Assembly: GCF_011043525.1 (NCBI RefSeq) | Contig: NZ_JAAKGO010000008.1 | Location: 1-64,000 of the forward strand | Direction of reading: 5' to 3' | Source: Sphingobacterium sp. SGG-5 | GTDB lineage: Bacteria; Bacteroidota; Bacteroidia; Sphingobacteriales; Sphingobacteriaceae | DNA length: 64,000 bases | Shown here: positions 1-50,095 of the stretch, piece after piece | How positions within the stretch are numbered: the stretch's first letter is position 1 | Layout of the letters: each line of letters opens with the position of its first letter | The notes under the pieces: generated by a model | What the model was told of the DNA's origin: nothing | Databases searched by the model: none | The model's input: the letters and a program-made list of their open reading frames with translations, nothing else | Program-made: the position numbers and the translations under genes

Positions 1-947
1 TGGGCAACCGGATATACCTGAACAACGAGCCTTATTACCAACGATTGGTTCTGGACCAGGGATTCTATCCGGACGGTATCTGGACATCCCCGTCCGATGA
101 AGCGCTTAAACGGGACATTATCTTGGGAAAAGAGGCCGGTTTCAACGGAGCTAGGTTACATCAGAAGGTTTTTGAGGAACGTTACTACTACTGGGCAGAT
201 AAGCTGGGGTACCTGACTTGGGGTGAGAGCGCCAGCTGGGGCATGGATGCGAACAACATAGAGGCGGCCCGTAATTTTATCTCTGAATGGATGGAATGCG
301 TGAAGCGGGACCGCAACCATCCTTCGTTGGTGGTATGGACGCCGTTCAACGAACAGTGGTGGCCAGATAAGACGAACTACCCTCGCCTGGCCGGGGATGT
401 CTATCGCCTGACCAAACTTATTGACCCGACGCGTCCTGTTAACGGGGTGAGCGGCGGCGCGCATATCCTGACGGACATCTGGACGGTACACCACTACGAA
501 CAGGATCCCGTAAAGCTTAGGGATGTCATCTATAAGGACAGTAAATTTTTCCAGACCCCGAACCGTGCCCATCCGGGCAACAGGAACATCGGATTCAACG
601 AGGTCAAAGACAGTAACAATTATGTGTTCCCTGTCTATGATGGGAAAAAACCCTATTTCGTGGATGAATTCGGGGGCATCAAATGGGTCAGTAACGAAAA
701 GCTCCAGCAGCTGGACTCCAAGACACAGACCTGGGGTTATGGCAGTGCACCTCGTACACAGGAAGAATTTTACCAACGCTTAGAGGGTCAGGTGGATCAG
801 CTTCTGTCACTGTCGGAACATGTCTGGGGCTACTGCTATACACAATTGACAGATGTAGAACAGGAACAGAATGGTATCTATAATTATGACCGATCGATAA
901 AGTTTGATATGGAGAGAATCCGAAAAATATTCTCTAAAAAACCGTGA
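1..947 (+). CDS. Glycoside hydrolase family 2, C-terminal catalytic part (5' truncated by window)
   Basis: The reading frame is open from the first base, so the protein start lies upstream. What remains is the TIM-barrel catalytic domain of a GH2 enzyme (beta-galactosidase, beta-glucuronidase or beta-mannosidase type), a retaining glycosidase. The acid/base motif WTPFNEQW (Glu at about 351-353) and the later nucleophile motif VDEFGG (Glu at about 666-668) are both present and correctly ordered, so the active site looks intact. The chain ends in IRKIFSKKP without an added domain. Substrate cannot be read from this fragment. It precedes the catabolic operon by about 50 bases on the same strand and may belong to it. 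Confidence 0.85.
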   Translation, partial: GNRIYLNNEPYYQRLVLDQGFYPDGIWTSPSDEALKRDIILGKEAGFNGARLHQKVFEERYYYWADKLGYLTWGESASWGMDANNIEAARNFISEWMECVKRDRNHPSLVVWTPFNEQWWPDKTNYPRLAGDVYRLTKLIDPTRPVNGVSGGAHILTDIWTVHHYEQDPVKLRDVIYKDSKFFQTPNRAHPGNRNIGFNEVKDSNNYVFPVYDGKKPYFVDEFGGIKWVSNEKLQQLDSKTQTWGYGSAPRTQEEFYQRLEGQVDQLLSLSEHVWGYCYTQLTDVEQEQNGIYNYDRSIKFDMERIRKIFSKKP

Positions 948-996
948 TGTGTGATATCGTCTCAAAGATAGAGAATTATTAATGCTATAAAATAAG

Positions 997-1809
997 ATGT
1001 ATATACTTCAATTAGTTTTTCTTGTACCTGTTTTTATAACCTGTGTCGTATTTGGTAAAGGCGTAGATTATGAAGCAGATGCACAAATTATGCCAAAAAT
1101 ATTTTTTGATGTTCAGAAAGGAGCACAGCAAGACAGGCAGGTAATCGCTCAATTATTGGCGGGCAGAACCCCGATCACCTGGCTGTTTACGGGAAATAGC
1201 ATTACACAAGGCGCGAAGCATACACATGGGCAAAGATCTTATTCAGAAATTTTTTCAGAACGGGTACGCTTTGAAATGGGGAGATATAGAGATATCGTGG
1301 TCAATACTGCCATCAGTGGACATACGACCAAAGATATACTGGAAGATTTTGAATGGAGAGTTGCGAAACTACAACCCCAAGTCGTGGTATTGATGATCGG
1401 TACAAATGATGCTGCGACAGCAAAGAACATTTCAGTATCGGAGTATGCAGATAATTTGTCCCAGATTATTATACGGATTAGGGATATCGGCGCAGTTCCT
1501 GTTTTAGTGAGTCCTACTCCGATTATTACCGACCTCACACCAGAGCGGAGTAATTTGAAACTGTATGTAGAGGCTATGAAAAATATCGCAGAAGAAGAAC
1601 AGATCATCCTTGTCGATAATTGGGCAATCTGGAAGATAGATCTGACAAAAAAGTATGATGGACAAGTTTTCCGCCAATTATTGAATGACCCGTTGCATCC
1701 GAATGGAACAGGTCATAAGGAGATTGCCATATCCTTGTTCAGGGAGCTTAACATTTTTGATCCGACACAACCAACAGGGGGTGCACCCTATTACGAAGGA
1801 GAACATTAG
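997..1809 (+). CDS. SGNH/GDSL-type esterase, exported
   Basis: This 270-residue protein has a hydrophobic N-terminal signal segment (residues 1-20) and the SGNH hydrolase blocks: GNSIT with nucleophile Ser68, NTAISGH for block II, GTND with Asn137, and DPLHPN with Asp231 and His234. Such enzymes remove acyl groups, commonly acetyl, from sugars, outside the cytoplasm. Only one base separates its stop from the next start, so it is the first clear gene of a long + strand operon. An O-acetyl esterase acting on the operon's substrate is a reasonable inference; lipase or protease activity cannot be excluded from sequence. Confidence 0.8.
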   Translation: MYILQLVFLVPVFITCVVFGKGVDYEADAQIMPKIFFDVQKGAQQDRQVIAQLLAGRTPITWLFTGNSITQGAKHTHGQRSYSEIFSERVRFEMGRYRDIVVNTAISGHTTKDILEDFEWRVAKLQPQVVVLMIGTNDAATAKNISVSEYADNLSQIIIRIRDIGAVPVLVSPTPIITDLTPERSNLKLYVEAMKNIAEEEQIILVDNWAIWKIDLTKKYDGQVFRQLLNDPLHPNGTGHKEIAISLFRELNIFDPTQPTGGAPYYEGEH

Positions 1810-1810
1810 T

Positions 1811-2734
1811 ATGATCAATCCTTATACGATAAATCCCGGACAGAGCGGCCCCCGGGTTCTTATACTGGCCGGTGTTCATGGTGATGAATATGAACCCATG
1901 TTGGCCGCTATGCAGCTTTTGGATGAATTGCCTGATCTGCTGATCCGAGGCTGTGTGACTATCGTACCTGTAGTGAATGAGGCGGCATATGTCAATGGGA
2001 GCCGATGTGCCTGCGATGGAATTGATATGGCTCGTATATGTCCGGGGAATAAAGAAGGATCTGTCACCGAACAAGCTGCAGATGCTGTAAGCCTATTGAT
2101 AAAAGAAGCCGATTACCTCATTGATATGCATACGGGTGGTTTGCTGTATGATATCTATCCGATGGTGGGCTATATGTTGCATAGCAGCCCGGAAATTCTG
2201 GAGAAACAACAGCAAATGGCCATCGCCAGTGGCTTTCCCTTGATCTGGGGAACGGATAGTCGCCCAAATGGTCGAACCTTGTCCGTTGCGAGGGACCATA
2301 ACGTTCCGGCCGTATATTTTGAATATGGTGGAGGAACGGGCTTTCGCGAAGAAGTCGTAGAGAGGTACAAAGAGGCCTGCATACGGATATTAGCGTATCA
2401 GGGGCTTTTTGAAGAGCCTTTTTCTATTCAGGACAGATATAACTACTGGCTGGAAGATGAGCGACCGGATAGCGGTCACCTACAGATAAAAATGCCGGCT
2501 CCTGTGGGAGGGGTTTTTATAGCCTTGGCAAAAACAGGGGAATATATGCGTAAGGGACAGTTATTTGGGGAGATAGCAGACCCCTTGTCCAAAGAGACTC
2601 ATCCCATATTTGCCGGAGAGGATGGATTGGTATTTCTGTTGCGAACCAATGTACATGTCAAGGCCGGTGAAGCCTTGGGGGGGATATTGGCGGTGGATTT
2701 ATTTGACAAAAAGACGATAAAAGAAATTGAATGA
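1811..2734 (+). CDS. Succinylglutamate desuccinylase/aspartoacylase (AstE/AspA) family amidohydrolase
   Basis: The ATG at 1811 follows the upstream stop by one base and gives a protein beginning MINPYTI; the reading frame extends further upstream but only over the preceding gene. The zinc site typical of this M14-like family is visible: GVHGDEYE (His and Glu ligands) near residue 24 and DMHTGG (third His) near residue 103. A C-terminal beta domain with KAGEALGGI follows, as in AspA/AstE. Members hydrolyse N-acyl bonds of amino acids, for example acetylaspartate, succinylglutamate, or the acetyl-diaminobutyrate of ectoine breakdown (DoeB/EutE). Here it probably deacylates an amino-containing intermediate; the substrate is unknown. 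Confidence 0.8.
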   Translation: MINPYTINPGQSGPRVLILAGVHGDEYEPMLAAMQLLDELPDLLIRGCVTIVPVVNEAAYVNGSRCACDGIDMARICPGNKEGSVTEQAADAVSLLIKEADYLIDMHTGGLLYDIYPMVGYMLHSSPEILEKQQQMAIASGFPLIWGTDSRPNGRTLSVARDHNVPAVYFEYGGGTGFREEVVERYKEACIRILAYQGLFEEPFSIQDRYNYWLEDERPDSGHLQIKMPAPVGGVFIALAKTGEYMRKGQLFGEIADPLSKETHPIFAGEDGLVFLLRTNVHVKAGEALGGILAVDLFDKKTIKEIE

Positions 2735-2735
2735 T

Positions 2736-3551
2736 ATGACAGCACATAAGGTCGCTATCGTGACAGGTGCCACACGTGGTATAGGCCGTAGTACGGCCAT
2801 TGGCCTTGCCAGGAAAGGTTATCATGTGGCTTTGGTCGGAAGAGACAAAAACGAGTTGATGGCATTAAAGCAGTGGATTGAAAAAGATGGTGATACGCAT
2901 GCTATCGTCTGTGCAGGGGATTTATCGGATACCCATTTTTGGGACGAAATAATCGAAAGTACACTATCTATTTGGAACTGTATAGATCTTTTGGTCAATA
3001 ATGCGGCATGGAGAACTATAGAACCGATGTCAGACATAGACATTACAAATTGGGACAAGACGATTCGGATATGCTTGACTGCTCCCGCATTTTTGGCAAA
3101 GAAAGTATGCCAGAGCATGTTGGAAAAGGGTATAAGCGGGGTAGTCATCAATGTGTCTAGCGTAATGTCACAACGCACGGGAGGCTATAGTCCGGCCTAT
3201 GCTGCCTGCAAAGGAGGGATGGAAAGCCTGACATACGAGTTGGCTACACTATACGGTCCAGCTAATATCCGGGTGGTCTGTGTCAATCCCGGCAATGTAC
3301 AAACGGATATGGGTCAAGATTATGAGGACCAGCAGGGCAATAACGTGAGTGCCCAGATAGGTGCTGATATGAACGATCACACTCCCCTAAAGCGAGCCGC
3401 TTCTTCCGAAGAAATTGCACAAGCTATTACTTGGCTTTCATCCAAAGAGGCTTCTTTTATTACGGGGACGACCCTTGTTGTGGATGGTGGTTTTACGCAC
3501 AACTTCAACAGTTATTCCATGAAAAAATTACAATTCCCCCATTTGTTTTGA
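2736..3551 (+). CDS. Short-chain dehydrogenase/reductase
   Basis: Classical SDR of about 270 residues: nucleotide-binding TGATRGIG at the N-terminus, NNAAW after strand 4, catalytic Ser in VSSV, and YAACK as the Tyr-x-x-x-Lys pair. The C-terminal TTLVVDGG is typical. I chose ATG 2736, two bases after the upstream stop, rather than a TTG at 2727 inside the previous gene. It should oxidise or reduce a hydroxyl or keto group with NAD(P)H. The tail after VVDGG is unusual (FTHNFNSYSMKKLQFPHLF) and overlaps the next gene, see the note on that junction. Confidence 0.85.
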   Translation: MTAHKVAIVTGATRGIGRSTAIGLARKGYHVALVGRDKNELMALKQWIEKDGDTHAIVCAGDLSDTHFWDEIIESTLSIWNCIDLLVNNAAWRTIEPMSDIDITNWDKTIRICLTAPAFLAKKVCQSMLEKGISGVVINVSSVMSQRTGGYSPAYAACKGGMESLTYELATLYGPANIRVVCVNPGNVQTDMGQDYEDQQGNNVSAQIGADMNDHTPLKRAASSEEIAQAITWLSSKEASFITGTTLVVDGGFTHNFNSYSMKKLQFPHLF

Positions 3552-4657
3552 AAGGTATCTGGAAATATGAACAATTGCTGCCGAGGATTGGTAGCGCATA
3601 TCAACTCTCTATAGGAGAGGGTGGTACGCCTTTGGTCAGATCCAAACATATCGGTCCGGCTTTGGGGCTTAAGAACCTGTACTTTAAATTGGAGAACCTC
3701 AATCCTTCGGGGTCTTATAAGGATAGGTTTGCCGCCATTGCTCTGTCACAGATACAGGAGCAGGGCGTAGGGTTTTGCCTAGCGACCTCCAGTGGCAATA
3801 CGGGTGCTGCCTTAGCGGCCTATAGTGCCGTAGCTCGCATACCCTGCTTCTTGGCTATTGTGGATGGTGCCCCCGAAGGGAAGCTCACGCAGATGGGGGC
3901 CTATGGAGCGGAGACATTGATGGTCAAGGACTTTGGAAAAGACGTCGGAGTCACGCAGGACACTATGGCATTGTTGGAACAAATTGCTTTGTCGTACGAT
4001 AGCGTGGTACAGGTCAGTGCTTTTCGGTATAGCCCGTCCGCCATGCAAGGGGTGCAGACCATAGCTTACGAGATAGCCGAGCAGTTGGGACAGGAAAAGG
4101 CGCAGGTGTTTGTTCCGGCTGGAGGTGGTGGGTTGACACTGGCTATTTGTAAGGGTTTTGATAGATGGGCAGAGGTATTTTCGGACTATGTGAAACCGAC
4201 CATACATTGTGTACAGCCTGAGGGTAACGATACCATAGCAACAGCTATCCGGAATCAGCTACAACAGGCAACTGCTATCGCTATGAGTACAACTGCCGTT
4301 AGCGGTTTGCAGGTCCCTGGTGTGCTGGACGGAGATGAAGTACTAAAATACTGTATGAATAATGCAGGGATGGGGCACACTGTGCAGGATGAAGAGGTAT
4401 TTGCCTGGCAACAACGGTTGGCACTGGAAGAGGGAATTTTTTGTGAACCTGCAGGGGCTGTTGCTTTGGCTGGGTTGGCAAATGCCCTAAAGAATAAAGA
4501 AATCGATACAGCAGCTGCGGCTGTTTGCATCGTGACAGGACACGGATTCAAGGACCCTGTCTCTGTCCAATGTATGGCAGCAGCGTCAGATCTGTTGTAT
4601 ATGGAGAATACGACAGTGTTGGAAAAATATTTAAAAACAAGGGTTAAACGAAAATAA
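3548..4657 (+). CDS. Threonine synthase-like PLP-dependent lyase
   Basis: Fold-type II PLP enzyme. The N-terminal GIWKYEQLLP is the usual threonine synthase beginning, SGSYKDR carries the Schiff-base lysine (Lys58 counted from the TTG), SSGNTG binds the cofactor, and PAGGGG is the phosphate loop. It is probably not a biosynthetic threonine synthase, because it sits in a catabolic operon; a dehydratase or ammonia-lyase of a hydroxy- or diamino acid is more likely, and a RidA gene follows, which would suit an enamine product. The frame has no ATG near the natural N-terminus. The best start is TTG 3548, overlapping the upstream TGA; 39 upstream codons in this frame lie over the SDR and are not family-like. 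Confidence 0.75.
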   Translation: MKGIWKYEQLLPRIGSAYQLSIGEGGTPLVRSKHIGPALGLKNLYFKLENLNPSGSYKDRFAAIALSQIQEQGVGFCLATSSGNTGAALAAYSAVARIPCFLAIVDGAPEGKLTQMGAYGAETLMVKDFGKDVGVTQDTMALLEQIALSYDSVVQVSAFRYSPSAMQGVQTIAYEIAEQLGQEKAQVFVPAGGGGLTLAICKGFDRWAEVFSDYVKPTIHCVQPEGNDTIATAIRNQLQQATAIAMSTTAVSGLQVPGVLDGDEVLKYCMNNAGMGHTVQDEEVFAWQQRLALEEGIFCEPAGAVALAGLANALKNKEIDTAAAAVCIVTGHGFKDPVSVQCMAAASDLLYMENTTVLEKYLKTRVKRK

Positions 4658-4666
4658 AAGGTCAAT

Positions 4667-5569
4667 ATGGAAAATAAATTTAAAGGCGTGTGGCCGGCGA
4701 TGTTCACACCTGTAGATATTGAAGGTAATGTTGCTGTGGTCGAATTGAAAAAACTGGTAGAGCTATTGATCTCTCAAGGTATGGATGGACTATATATCTT
4801 GGGGTCGACAGGGCAGGGCGTACTCTTTACCGAAGAGCAGCGAAAGCAGGTCGTAGAGGAAGTGATGGCTGTTAATGCAGGAAGAGTGCCTATCATGGTA
4901 CAGGTAGGAGCAATGACGACGGCCGAGTCTGTACGATTGGCACAACATGCTGCCAAGCTCGGCGCTGACGCCATATCATCGGTGGGGCCTATTTATTTCT
5001 CGGGCAATCAGGACACCGCATTGGAACATTACCGTCAGATAGCTGCTGCATCTGATTTGCCGTTTTTTCCGTACCAGTTGGGCAATAATACGATGGGCAA
5101 TATTACGGGGTTTATCGACGAACTGTTGAAAATCCCTACCCTGAAAGGTATGAAACTGACTACCGGTCAACTGTTGGAAATCGGTATTGTCAAAAATCAT
5201 GTAGGAGATCGTTTGCACCTGTTCAGCGGAGCGGATGAGTTGATGTGTCATGCAGCACTTTGTGGTACTTCTGGTGCGATAGGTTCTTTCTATAACCTTT
5301 GGGGGCCGGTTTGTAAGACCGTGAGAGCTTCTTTTAAGGAGGGGAATTATGCTCTTGCTGAAGAGTTTATGCTTGAATTTCAAAAAGTTATCATGTATGT
5401 GCTGCCCAATATATGGACATTTTTGAGACAAGCCATGCAGCTTAAATATGGAATTGATATCGGTGCGACGAAAGCACCACTGGGTACGATGCAAAAGGCG
5501 TGGGACGATCAGGAAGTACAGTCTATTATAGACAAGATAGAATCAATGACAGAAGTATCCGTAGCGTAA
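4667..5569 (+). CDS. N-acetylneuraminate lyase-like member of the DHDPS/NAL aldolase family
   Basis: A 300-residue class I aldolase barrel. GSTGQG (substrate carboxylate loop), Tyr136 in FFPYQLGN and Schiff-base Lys163 in LKGMKLTTG are in register with the DHDPS/NAL family. The Lys-x-Thr arrangement (K163, T165) resembles N-acetylneuraminate lyases more than dihydrodipicolinate synthases. Members split or form a 4-hydroxy-2-keto acid with pyruvate. With a NanM-like mutarotase and an MFS importer in the same operon, cleavage of a sialic-acid-like or 2-keto-3-deoxy sugar acid is a fair inference. Its stop overlaps the next ATG (TAATG at 5567-5571). Confidence 0.8.
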   Translation: MENKFKGVWPAMFTPVDIEGNVAVVELKKLVELLISQGMDGLYILGSTGQGVLFTEEQRKQVVEEVMAVNAGRVPIMVQVGAMTTAESVRLAQHAAKLGADAISSVGPIYFSGNQDTALEHYRQIAAASDLPFFPYQLGNNTMGNITGFIDELLKIPTLKGMKLTTGQLLEIGIVKNHVGDRLHLFSGADELMCHAALCGTSGAIGSFYNLWGPVCKTVRASFKEGNYALAEEFMLEFQKVIMYVLPNIWTFLRQAMQLKYGIDIGATKAPLGTMQKAWDDQEVQSIIDKIESMTEVSVA

Positions 5570-48092: not shown

Positions 48093-48605
48093 ATGGACAA
48101 TGAAACTTTATTTGTAGAAAGACAAAGATTTAAGCAATGGTGGATTTGGTTAATCCTGCTGATCCTTAATGGGTTTTTCCTCTACGGTGTTTTTAAACAA
48201 GTTGTCGGTGGACAGCAATTTGGTGATAAGCCGATGAGCGACACTGAACTTTTAATAGCTACGGGACTGACCATCATATTGACATTGTTATTTGTTAGCT
48301 GTCGTCTTGTCACCCAAGTTAAAGTAGATGGAATATATGTTCGTTTCTTTCCTTTTCACCTCAAATATAAACGTTATCCTTGGGATATCTTGACCAAGTG
48401 TTATGTCAGAGTGTATTCGCCGATAAGCGAATATGGAGGTTGGGGATTGCGGTTTAGTTTCTTTGGAAAAGGCAAGGCATATAATGTTTCGGGCAACAAG
48501 GGGTTGCAGCTTGAGTTTACCAACGGTAAGAAACTACTTATTGGCACAAACAAATCAGAAGAACTTATTAAAATATTACATCAGATTGGCCAATTGAAGT
48601 CCTAA
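48093..48605 (+). CDS. Predicted inner-membrane protein of unknown function
   Basis: 170 residues with two membrane helices (WIWLILLILNGFFLYGVF at about 17-35, ELLIATGLTIILTLLFVSC at about 52-70) and a C-terminal part of beta character like a bacterial PH-like domain (VKVDGIYVRFFPFH...KYKRYPWDI...GWGLRFS...LQLEFTNGKKLLIGT). I recall similar proteins in Bacteroidota but no known role. Alone on the + strand between cbpA and the riboswitch-controlled gene; the stretch 48606-48672 holds nothing clear. Confidence 0.6.
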   Translation: MDNETLFVERQRFKQWWIWLILLILNGFFLYGVFKQVVGGQQFGDKPMSDTELLIATGLTIILTLLFVSCRLVTQVKVDGIYVRFFPFHLKYKRYPWDILTKCYVRVYSPISEYGGWGLRFSFFGKGKAYNVSGNKGLQLEFTNGKKLLIGTNKSEELIKILHQIGQLKS

Positions 48606-48672: not shown

Positions 48673-48680
48673 TAAGTTTG
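48673..48680 (+). promoter_or_regulatory. -7 box of the riboswitch-controlled gene
   Basis: TAAGTTTG matches TAnnTTTG exactly. Transcription from it would begin about 7-10 bases later, just ahead of the riboswitch aptamer starting at 48695, so the box and the RNA fit together. No -33 box is convincing. Confidence 0.6.
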
Positions 48681-48694
48681 CAGCAGACAAAAAA

Positions 48695-48777
48695 GGAAAT
48701 GGTGTTCTTCCTTACCCAACCGCTCCAAAAAAGCTGATGACGCCTGATTAATTAAATGTTGACAATTTAATCAGGTG
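48695..48777 (+). promoter_or_regulatory. Fluoride riboswitch (crcB motif) with start-site hairpin
   Basis: Aptamer 48695-48746 fits the fluoride (crcB) consensus: GGAA/TTCC stem (48695-48698 with 48708-48711) around ATGGTGTTC, then AACCGCT, short GCT/AGC stem, and GCTGATGACGCC. The pseudoknot forms between GGTGT (48701-48705) and ACGCC (48740-48744). Downstream, CGCCTGATTAA (48741-48751) pairs with TTAATCAGGTG (48767-48777), a hairpin ending four bases before the ATG of the CLC gene. The two pairings share CGCC, so fluoride binding should open the translation start. Mechanism is inferred from the base pairing. Confidence 0.9.
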
Positions 48778-48781
48778 CGCC

Positions 48782-50095
48782 ATGTCTAAATACAAACAAA
48801 GTACAATTCGTAGAAAGATAAACCTCTCCACTCGATTATTCTTTCGTAAATACCCCGCCATTTCTTATATCATTAGGTGGTTTTTCATCAGTTTGTTTAT
48901 CGGCGCGTGTATTGGCAGTGCTTCGGCCGGCTTTCTGATTTCGTTGGATTGGGCAACCGATTTTCGGGAAAATCATCTTTGGTTGATTGCCTTGCTTCCT
49001 GTTGGAGGTCTGCTCATTGGACTCCTCTATCATTACTTGGGTAAAGATGCCGAACAAGGTAATAATCTTCTGATCGACACTATCCATCAACCGAAACGGA
49101 TCATACCTTTCCGTATGGCCCCGTTTGTGTATATCGGAACTATTGCTACCCATTTCTTTGGAGGTTCAGCAGGGCGGGAGGGAACGGCCTTACAGATGGC
49201 TGGGGCGATTGCGGACCAATTTTCAAAACCATTCCGCCTCTCATCCCCGGACAGGGTGATACTCATCATAGCGGCGATTGCTGGGGGATTTGGATCCGTA
49301 TTCGGTACACCCTTAGCGGGTGCAATTTTTGGTCTGGAGTTTTTTCTTTTGGGGCGTATCCGGTATAACGCTATTTTCCCGGCTTTCATGACGGCGATAA
49401 TCGCCGATTTGGTCACAAGGCTTTGGCAGGCACAACATACGCATTATCATATTGATGTCGTTCCCGATATTTCACTCCTTCCAGTCGTTTATGCTGTTAT
49501 AGTTGGGGTTTTCTGTGGGCTATGTGCTGCTACATTTAGCAAGATGGTTCACAAAGCAGGCCGTATATTTAAGTCTACGATTGCCTATCCGCCATTGCGG
49601 CCTTTTGTCGGAGGTATTCTTGTTGCGTCTGCCGTGTGGGCTATAGGTACTACAAAATATATCGGCTTGGGCATTCCGACAATTGTTGATTCGTTCGAGC
49701 AGCAACTGCCGGCGTATGATTTTGCGGTGAAAATGATTTTTACTATTGTCACGCTTTCGGCAGGGTTTAAAGGTGGGGAAGTGACACCATTGTTTTTTAT
49801 TGGAGCAACTTTGGGGAATGCGTTGGCCTATTTTATTCCCCTGCCCGTAGATCTCCTTGCTGGCATGGGTTTTGTCGCCGTTTTCGCGGGAGCTACGAAT
49901 ACACCTTTAGCATGTAGCATCATGGCGATAGAGCTTTTCGGTGCTGATTGCGGCATGTATGTGGCTATTGCCTGTATAGTTTCCTATTTGCTGTCAGGGC
50001 ATAGCAGTATTTACCGAAGCCAACTTATCGGTGAACCTAAAAATCGGCGGTTTTGGCACCATGAAGGTAAGCGGATAAATGATCTTCCCTCTTAA
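48782..50095 (+). CDS. CLC-F type fluoride/proton antiporter (eriC-F)
   Basis: A 437-residue CLC-family carrier with about ten to twelve membrane helices. The selectivity-filter site has GNNLL (residues 93-97), not the GSGIP of chloride CLCs, GREGT carries the gating Glu133, and a second acidic residue, Glu333, lies in GFKGGEVTP. Glutamates 200 residues apart match what I recall of Enterococcus CLC-F (118 and 318). With the fluoride riboswitch directly in front, it is best read as a fluoride exporter and not a chloride channel. It ends with a 4-base tail overlap with the convergent M28 gene. Confidence 0.88.
   Translation: MSKYKQSTIRRKINLSTRLFFRKYPAISYIIRWFFISLFIGACIGSASAGFLISLDWATDFRENHLWLIALLPVGGLLIGLLYHYLGKDAEQGNNLLIDTIHQPKRIIPFRMAPFVYIGTIATHFFGGSAGREGTALQMAGAIADQFSKPFRLSSPDRVILIIAAIAGGFGSVFGTPLAGAIFGLEFFLLGRIRYNAIFPAFMTAIIADLVTRLWQAQHTHYHIDVVPDISLLPVVYAVIVGVFCGLCAATFSKMVHKAGRIFKSTIAYPPLRPFVGGILVASAVWAIGTTKYIGLGIPTIVDSFEQQLPAYDFAVKMIFTIVTLSAGFKGGEVTPLFFIGATLGNALAYFIPLPVDLLAGMGFVAVFAGATNTPLACSIMAIELFGADCGMYVAIACIVSYLLSGHSSIYRSQLIGEPKNRRFWHHEGKRINDLPS

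Follow-up and report, generated by a model that had tools for sequence, protein, structure and literature searches.

Within a stretch of 64,000 nt from Sphingobacterium sp. SGG-5 (the window), a gene of the CLC family stands behind a candidate fluoride riboswitch. The locus raises two questions: which ion the encoded protein would carry, and by what means the RNA ahead of the gene would govern its expression. We address the leader first and the protein second.

Fluoride aptamer upstream of the CLC gene

A preliminary description of this DNA had placed a crcB aptamer, pseudoknot included, in front of a CLC gene, and had named a covariance-model search for the crcB RNA as one check. The search bore this out: RF01734 matched the + strand at 48686-48753 with 47.8 bits, against a gathering threshold of 34, and the match was complete over model positions 1-64 (E 3.7e-10 over all 64 kb of the window). 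Its first base lies 9 nt before 48695, the start given in the preliminary description and the position at which P2 (GGAA) begins. By inspection, GGUGU at 48701-48705 can pair with ACGCC at 48740-48744, forming a pseudoknot between the P2 loop and the 3′ strand. The window aptamer has the same sequence, P2, P3, and pseudoknot as the Rfam fluoride riboswitch, and it likewise precedes a predicted fluoride exporter gene. An Rfam scan of the whole window returned five matches, namely four tRNAs and RF01734, and no other riboswitch. Genome-wide, the search for fluoride aptamers found one, that at 48686-48753.

The next long + strand ORF, here designated clcF, begins with an ATG at 48782, 28 bases past the aptamer, and its stop codon ends at 50095. 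CLC antiporters are reportedly controlled by riboswitches, as described in 2012, and the same would be true of clcF in the window. The features of the aptamer and the gene are as follows.

48686..48753, + strand: fluoride riboswitch aptamer (crcB motif, RF01734), from the Rfam covariance-model match
48695..48711, + strand: aptamer hairpin P2, GGAA 48695-48698 with UUCC 48708-48711
48701..48705, + strand: 5′ pseudoknot strand GGUGU, in the P2 loop, from the sequence
48722..48734, + strand: aptamer hairpin P3, GCU 48722-48724 with AGC 48732-48734
48740..48744, + strand: 3′ pseudoknot strand ACGCC, common to the aptamer and the base of the start-site hairpin
48782..50095, + strand: clcF, predicted CLC-F type fluoride/proton antiporter of 437 aa, from the ORF, Pfam, the PDB sequence match, and signatures

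A start-site hairpin shares a strand with the aptamer

Folding of the leader revealed a second structure between the aptamer and the gene.

48741..48777, + strand: start-site hairpin, CGCCUGAUUAA 48741-48751 with UUAAUCAGGUG 48767-48777, from folding

This hairpin has 11 bp, a 15-nt loop, and a stability of -13.4 kcal/mol, and it ends 4 nt before the ATG of clcF. The 3′ pseudoknot strand (48740-48744) doubles as its base. When ACGCC was blocked from pairing, the hairpin lost 9.6 of its 13.4 kcal/mol. The overlap between aptamer and hairpin is well supported, and the hairpin is likely the actual switch.

Imposing the aptamer raised predicted openness from 0.13 to 0.37 over the 12 nt that precede the ATG and from 0.36 to 0.44 over the AUG, both calculated with the energies of the pseudoknot and of fluoride excluded. 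The gain is small because the upper stem of the hairpin persists. The stability of the whole window leader was unexceptional (z -0.94). Both results weigh against the hairpin as the switch.

Covariation of the hairpin arms

The hairpin arms were compared in a set of 82 leaders, 59 from the genus and 23 from named contigs, of which 69 were distinct after one (G025) was dropped. A sub-threshold aptamer (G065:C29), a locus that duplicates G021 (L143), and one with its aptamer at the locus edge (L142) were omitted from the set. The pseudoknot of G032 was repositioned by hand. For 10 rows a new start codon was taken, the first ATG that lies 38 nt or more further on, and in four of these the first ATG is not that of CLC-F. 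The arm-pairing test considered only the 18 nt that precede the ATG.

The left arm was GCCTG in 32 of the 69 leaders, GTCTA in 36, and of a third kind in one, and the right arm changes to match. The native arm duplex averaged -9.48 kcal/mol, versus -2.71 kcal/mol for cross-type swaps and -3.45 kcal/mol for shuffled right arms, and it was better than the leader's own swap mean in 65 of 69 cases. The duplex reached -5 kcal/mol or better in 60 leaders and was weak in nine. Blocking ACGCC cost at least 2 kcal/mol in 62 leaders and less than 1 kcal/mol in the other seven. The two arms change together, and their pairing is maintained through sequence change. An earlier test, based on the longest run of pairs, gave a poorer separation of native and swapped arms and was too loose for AT-rich leaders: runs of at least 7 occurred in 54/72 native, 768/3438 swapped, and 553/3600 shuffled combinations.

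For a check outside the genus, 20 leaders were hand-picked, rather than drawn at random, to span other genera of the family. Nineteen were readable; L177 was dropped as its core was not found by pattern. At least 2 kcal/mol was lost on blocking ACGCC in 17 of these 19, and further arm pairs were found, such as CCTACC/GGTAGG and CCTGC/GCAGG. A strong arm lay near the ATG in only 12 of the 19 leaders, a result reached by 95 of 950 shuffles.

Leaders of another type occur in G006, G014, G017 (the same as G035), G040, G064, and G066. Here, the hairpin before the ATG stops short of the aptamer strand and is made of CTTTAT with ATAAAG (ATAGAG in G066).

Translational or transcriptional control

Mutually exclusive folds of aptamer and terminator platform have been published for fluoride riboswitches, and translational ones are described from Burkholderia pseudomallei and Pseudomonas syringae (PMC13273304). 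The same exclusion of aptamer and platform is proposed for the window leader, in which the platform would instead be a start-codon hairpin, in a phylum without Shine-Dalgarno sites. According to PMC6847099, Bacteroidetes lack such sites, and structure in the start region tunes initiation in Flavobacterium johnsoniae. In the literature searched, which covered few subscription papers, we found no description of a translational fluoride riboswitch from Bacteroidota.

The platform is probably translational, occluding the start codon, because the arms covary beside the ATG in 69 leaders. A hairpin that acts on transcription, as a terminator or through RNA stability, ahead of the same exporter and behind the same aptamer, would fit two observations: the overlap of an aptamer strand with a hairpin is published for terminator platforms (PMC13273304), and in 5 of the 19 leaders from other genera the chosen ATG comes well after the end of the hairpin. 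We nevertheless consider this unlikely. Of the 60 leaders with a good arm, 57 have 0-8 nt between the end of the arm and the ATG, and just two carry five consecutive T within the 9 nt that follow the arm. In the window, no T run follows the right arm; CGCC comes next and then the ATG.

A terminator at the window leader was rejected on this missing T run and not on the terminator scan, which returned nothing at the leader but covered loops of 3-8 nt only and is blind to a hairpin with a 15-nt loop.

Promoter and genus-wide pairing of aptamer and clcF

A candidate promoter element lies upstream of the aptamer.

48673..48680, + strand: putative promoter -7 box TAAGTTTG, read from the sequence; Bacteroidota consensus TAnnTTTG

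The consensus is that given in PMC7366714. Judged from the position of the box, the transcript would start at about the first base of the aptamer. TAnnTTTG was found in the 40 nt ahead of the aptamer in 66 of the 82 leaders, versus 471 of 8200 shuffles, but ahead of only 4 of the 19 aptamers taken from other genera in the family.

Among 93 Sphingobacterium genomes, 56 have the aptamer and 78 a CLC-F homologue (E 1e-60). Across these genomes, a CLC-F hit was found less than 250 nt downstream of 55 of the 60 aptamer hits. Two of the remaining five are at 420 and 439 nt, two are in one genome (L103), and one is a sub-threshold hit without a CLC. The pairing of this aptamer with CLC-F is well known, indeed textbook, and the window adds another example.

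Conversely, 22 of the 80 CLC-F hits in the genus are without an aptamer. The gene can evidently do without one, which would fit a reading in which the window aptamer is a non-functional remnant and clcF is constitutively expressed. We consider this very unlikely: the aptamer scores well above the curated threshold, the locus also has a pseudoknot, a promoter box, and a start hairpin, and arm pairing has been kept through sequence change.

Several other arrangements were observed at related loci. In L101 (G055:C1) and L114 (G071:C18), the aptamer and start hairpin are followed by 420-439 nt before CLC-F. This gap holds one 91-aa ORF without an assigned family in L101 and no ORF of at least 50 aa in L114; the gap may represent a first gene that is short or has decayed. 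In L103 (G076:C330, about 187-5020), two fluoride aptamers head one same-strand gene run. Each aptamer is followed by a short ORF (65 and 68 aa) and then a universal stress protein gene, and the run continues with enolase, inorganic pyrophosphatase, and CLC-F, the last 2.6 and 3.4 kb past the aptamers. From its gene content, L103 appears to be a compact fluoride-stress gene set, in a genome (G076) with 9% contamination by tool estimate. On Chryseobacterium contigs (L134, L137, L121, and L123), a Flavo-1 RNA (RF01705) lies within about 2.5 kb of clcF.

Identity of the CLC protein

The clcF protein matched Pfam Voltage_CLC (PF00654) with 255.7 bits, versus a cut-off of 24.8, which places it in the CLC fold family. 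Its closest solved structures are 6d0j, 6d0k, and 6d0n, all of a CLC-type fluoride/proton antiporter, with 204.6 to 201.3 bits. The alignment to 6d0j (204.6 bits, E 2e-59) covers residues 35-423. The best other CLCs in the PDB were 1kpl, with 46.8 bits, and 3nd0, with 31.1 bits; the best E among other CLCs was 1.7e-11.

A 2024 review (PMC11139923) gives the CLC-F signatures as GNNLI/GMGLI, GREGT/V, and GEVTP. The preliminary description had read GNNLL, GREGT, and a second glutamate as marks of a CLC-F antiporter, not a chloride channel. All are present: GNNLL, GREGT, and GGEVTP start at residues 93, 131, and 331, respectively, which correspond to Asn94, Glu133, and Glu333. The protein thus carries all three published signatures, with L in place of I as the last letter of the first. 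The CLC-F of 6d0j is from Enterococcus casseliflavus (PMC11139923). GREG and GGEVTP are common to both proteins, whereas the selectivity stretch reads GMN in the E. casseliflavus protein and GNN in that of the window. Two further CLCs encoded by this genome have none of the three CLC-F signatures; at those sites they show GITPI or GITEI, GLEAP or GVEVS, and GGIFAP or GGVFAP.

Conservation of the signatures was examined in an alignment of 109 rows, comprising 80 genus hits, the window's own included, and 29 named-contig loci, among which L143 repeats G021. GGEVTP was found in 109/109 rows. The GN that begins the first signature and GREGT were found in 108, the remaining row being a partial hit without those regions; from the third letter onward, the first signature differs in some rows.

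The distance between the structure scores, together with the three signatures, supports the assignment made in the preliminary description, and the window protein is in all likelihood a CLC-F and a fluoride exporter. A fluoride riboswitch might instead govern an ordinary chloride channel or chloride/proton exchanger, as the name given by general family models would have it, but this is scarcely credible for a protein that has GNN, GREGT, and GEVTP, is without the motifs of both paralogues, and matches a CLC-F structure so far above the best other CLC.

A search of this genome for CrcB/Fluc gave no match, and clcF is the only exporter of known type found in it. The two types of fluoride exporter are usually mutually exclusive, and riboswitches control about 30% of CLC-F genes (PMC11139923). 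The single aptamer and the missing CrcB/Fluc match in this genome agree with that source on exporter exclusivity and on riboswitch-controlled CLC-F.

A voltage-gated chloride channel label had been forecast for the gene, and it is indeed both the Pfam name of the family ('Voltage gated chloride channel') and that of most listed plasmid homologues. Specifically, 119 plasmid records hold a relative, and among the 15 of these 119 matches that were listed, 11 go under 'voltage-gated chloride channel family protein' and the other four have no gene entry, the gene table being incomplete. No NCBIfam model, including those for chloride CLCs (ClcA/ClcB), matched at its cut-off; the best was ClcB-like, with 110.9 versus 482 bits. 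Although labelled chloride channels, the clcF protein and its relatives in all likelihood export fluoride, and the label calls for correction.

Origin of the locus

Upstream of the aptamer lies a further small gene.

48093..48605, + strand: small gene with a DUF6141 match (Pfam), upstream of the aptamer and in the same insertion as clcF

The genes for DnaJ and an M28 peptidase are separated by a gap of 2138 nt in the window and of 198 nt in G063, which has the closest flanks. Based on the best dnaJ and the best peptidase hit per genome, the gap is less than 400 nt in 36 of the 78 genomes with both genes. The insertion between the two genes in the window contains clcF with its leader and the DUF6141 gene; the compared loci of other genomes yielded no DUF6141 homologue. 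In other genomes, the DnaJ-M28 gap holds other DNA.

A clcF tree of 108 proteins was built by a quick method, with the partial CLC hit G018 left out; it leaves 29 of 104 inner branches open. The window clcF groups with relatives from Weeksellaceae, Flavobacteriaceae, and Sphingobacteriaceae, mostly of its own leader type. Most members of the genus are placed elsewhere, with the other leader type or no aptamer. The leader label changes 13 times on the tree, versus a mean of 49.6 for shuffled labels. The insertion and the tree suggest horizontal gain as the simplest reading, and from synteny and this quick tree the aptamer-clcF cassette was probably acquired in that way.

Proposed model

Known fluoride riboswitches bind fluoride with magnesium. 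We infer that the window very probably encodes a fluoride-controlled fluoride exporter that would work as follows. Fluoride would enter as HF, accumulate in the cytoplasm, and bind the aptamer, which in its bound form would hold the GGUGU/ACGCC pseudoknot. At low fluoride, ACGCC would form the base of the hairpin, whose other arm stops 4 nt short of the ATG, and the ribosome would thereby be kept from loading. With fluoride, the base of the hairpin would be removed and most of its stability lost, and translation of clcF would begin. The CLC-F protein would then export fluoride in exchange for protons.

Beyond the known pairing of aptamer and exporter, what this locus adds is modest: a start-codon hairpin with a strand common to the aptamer. 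For Bacteroidota more widely, we lean towards a recurrent switch, free of Shine-Dalgarno sites, in which the pseudoknot strand is the base of the start-codon hairpin. Its arms would have drifted jointly into several types, among them GCCTGAT/ATCAGG, GTCTAC/GTAGAC, and CCTACC/GGTAGG. The exporter would move between orders as one cassette with the aptamer and the switch. The window leader is a compact and well-supported example of how a riboswitch may act without Shine-Dalgarno sites.
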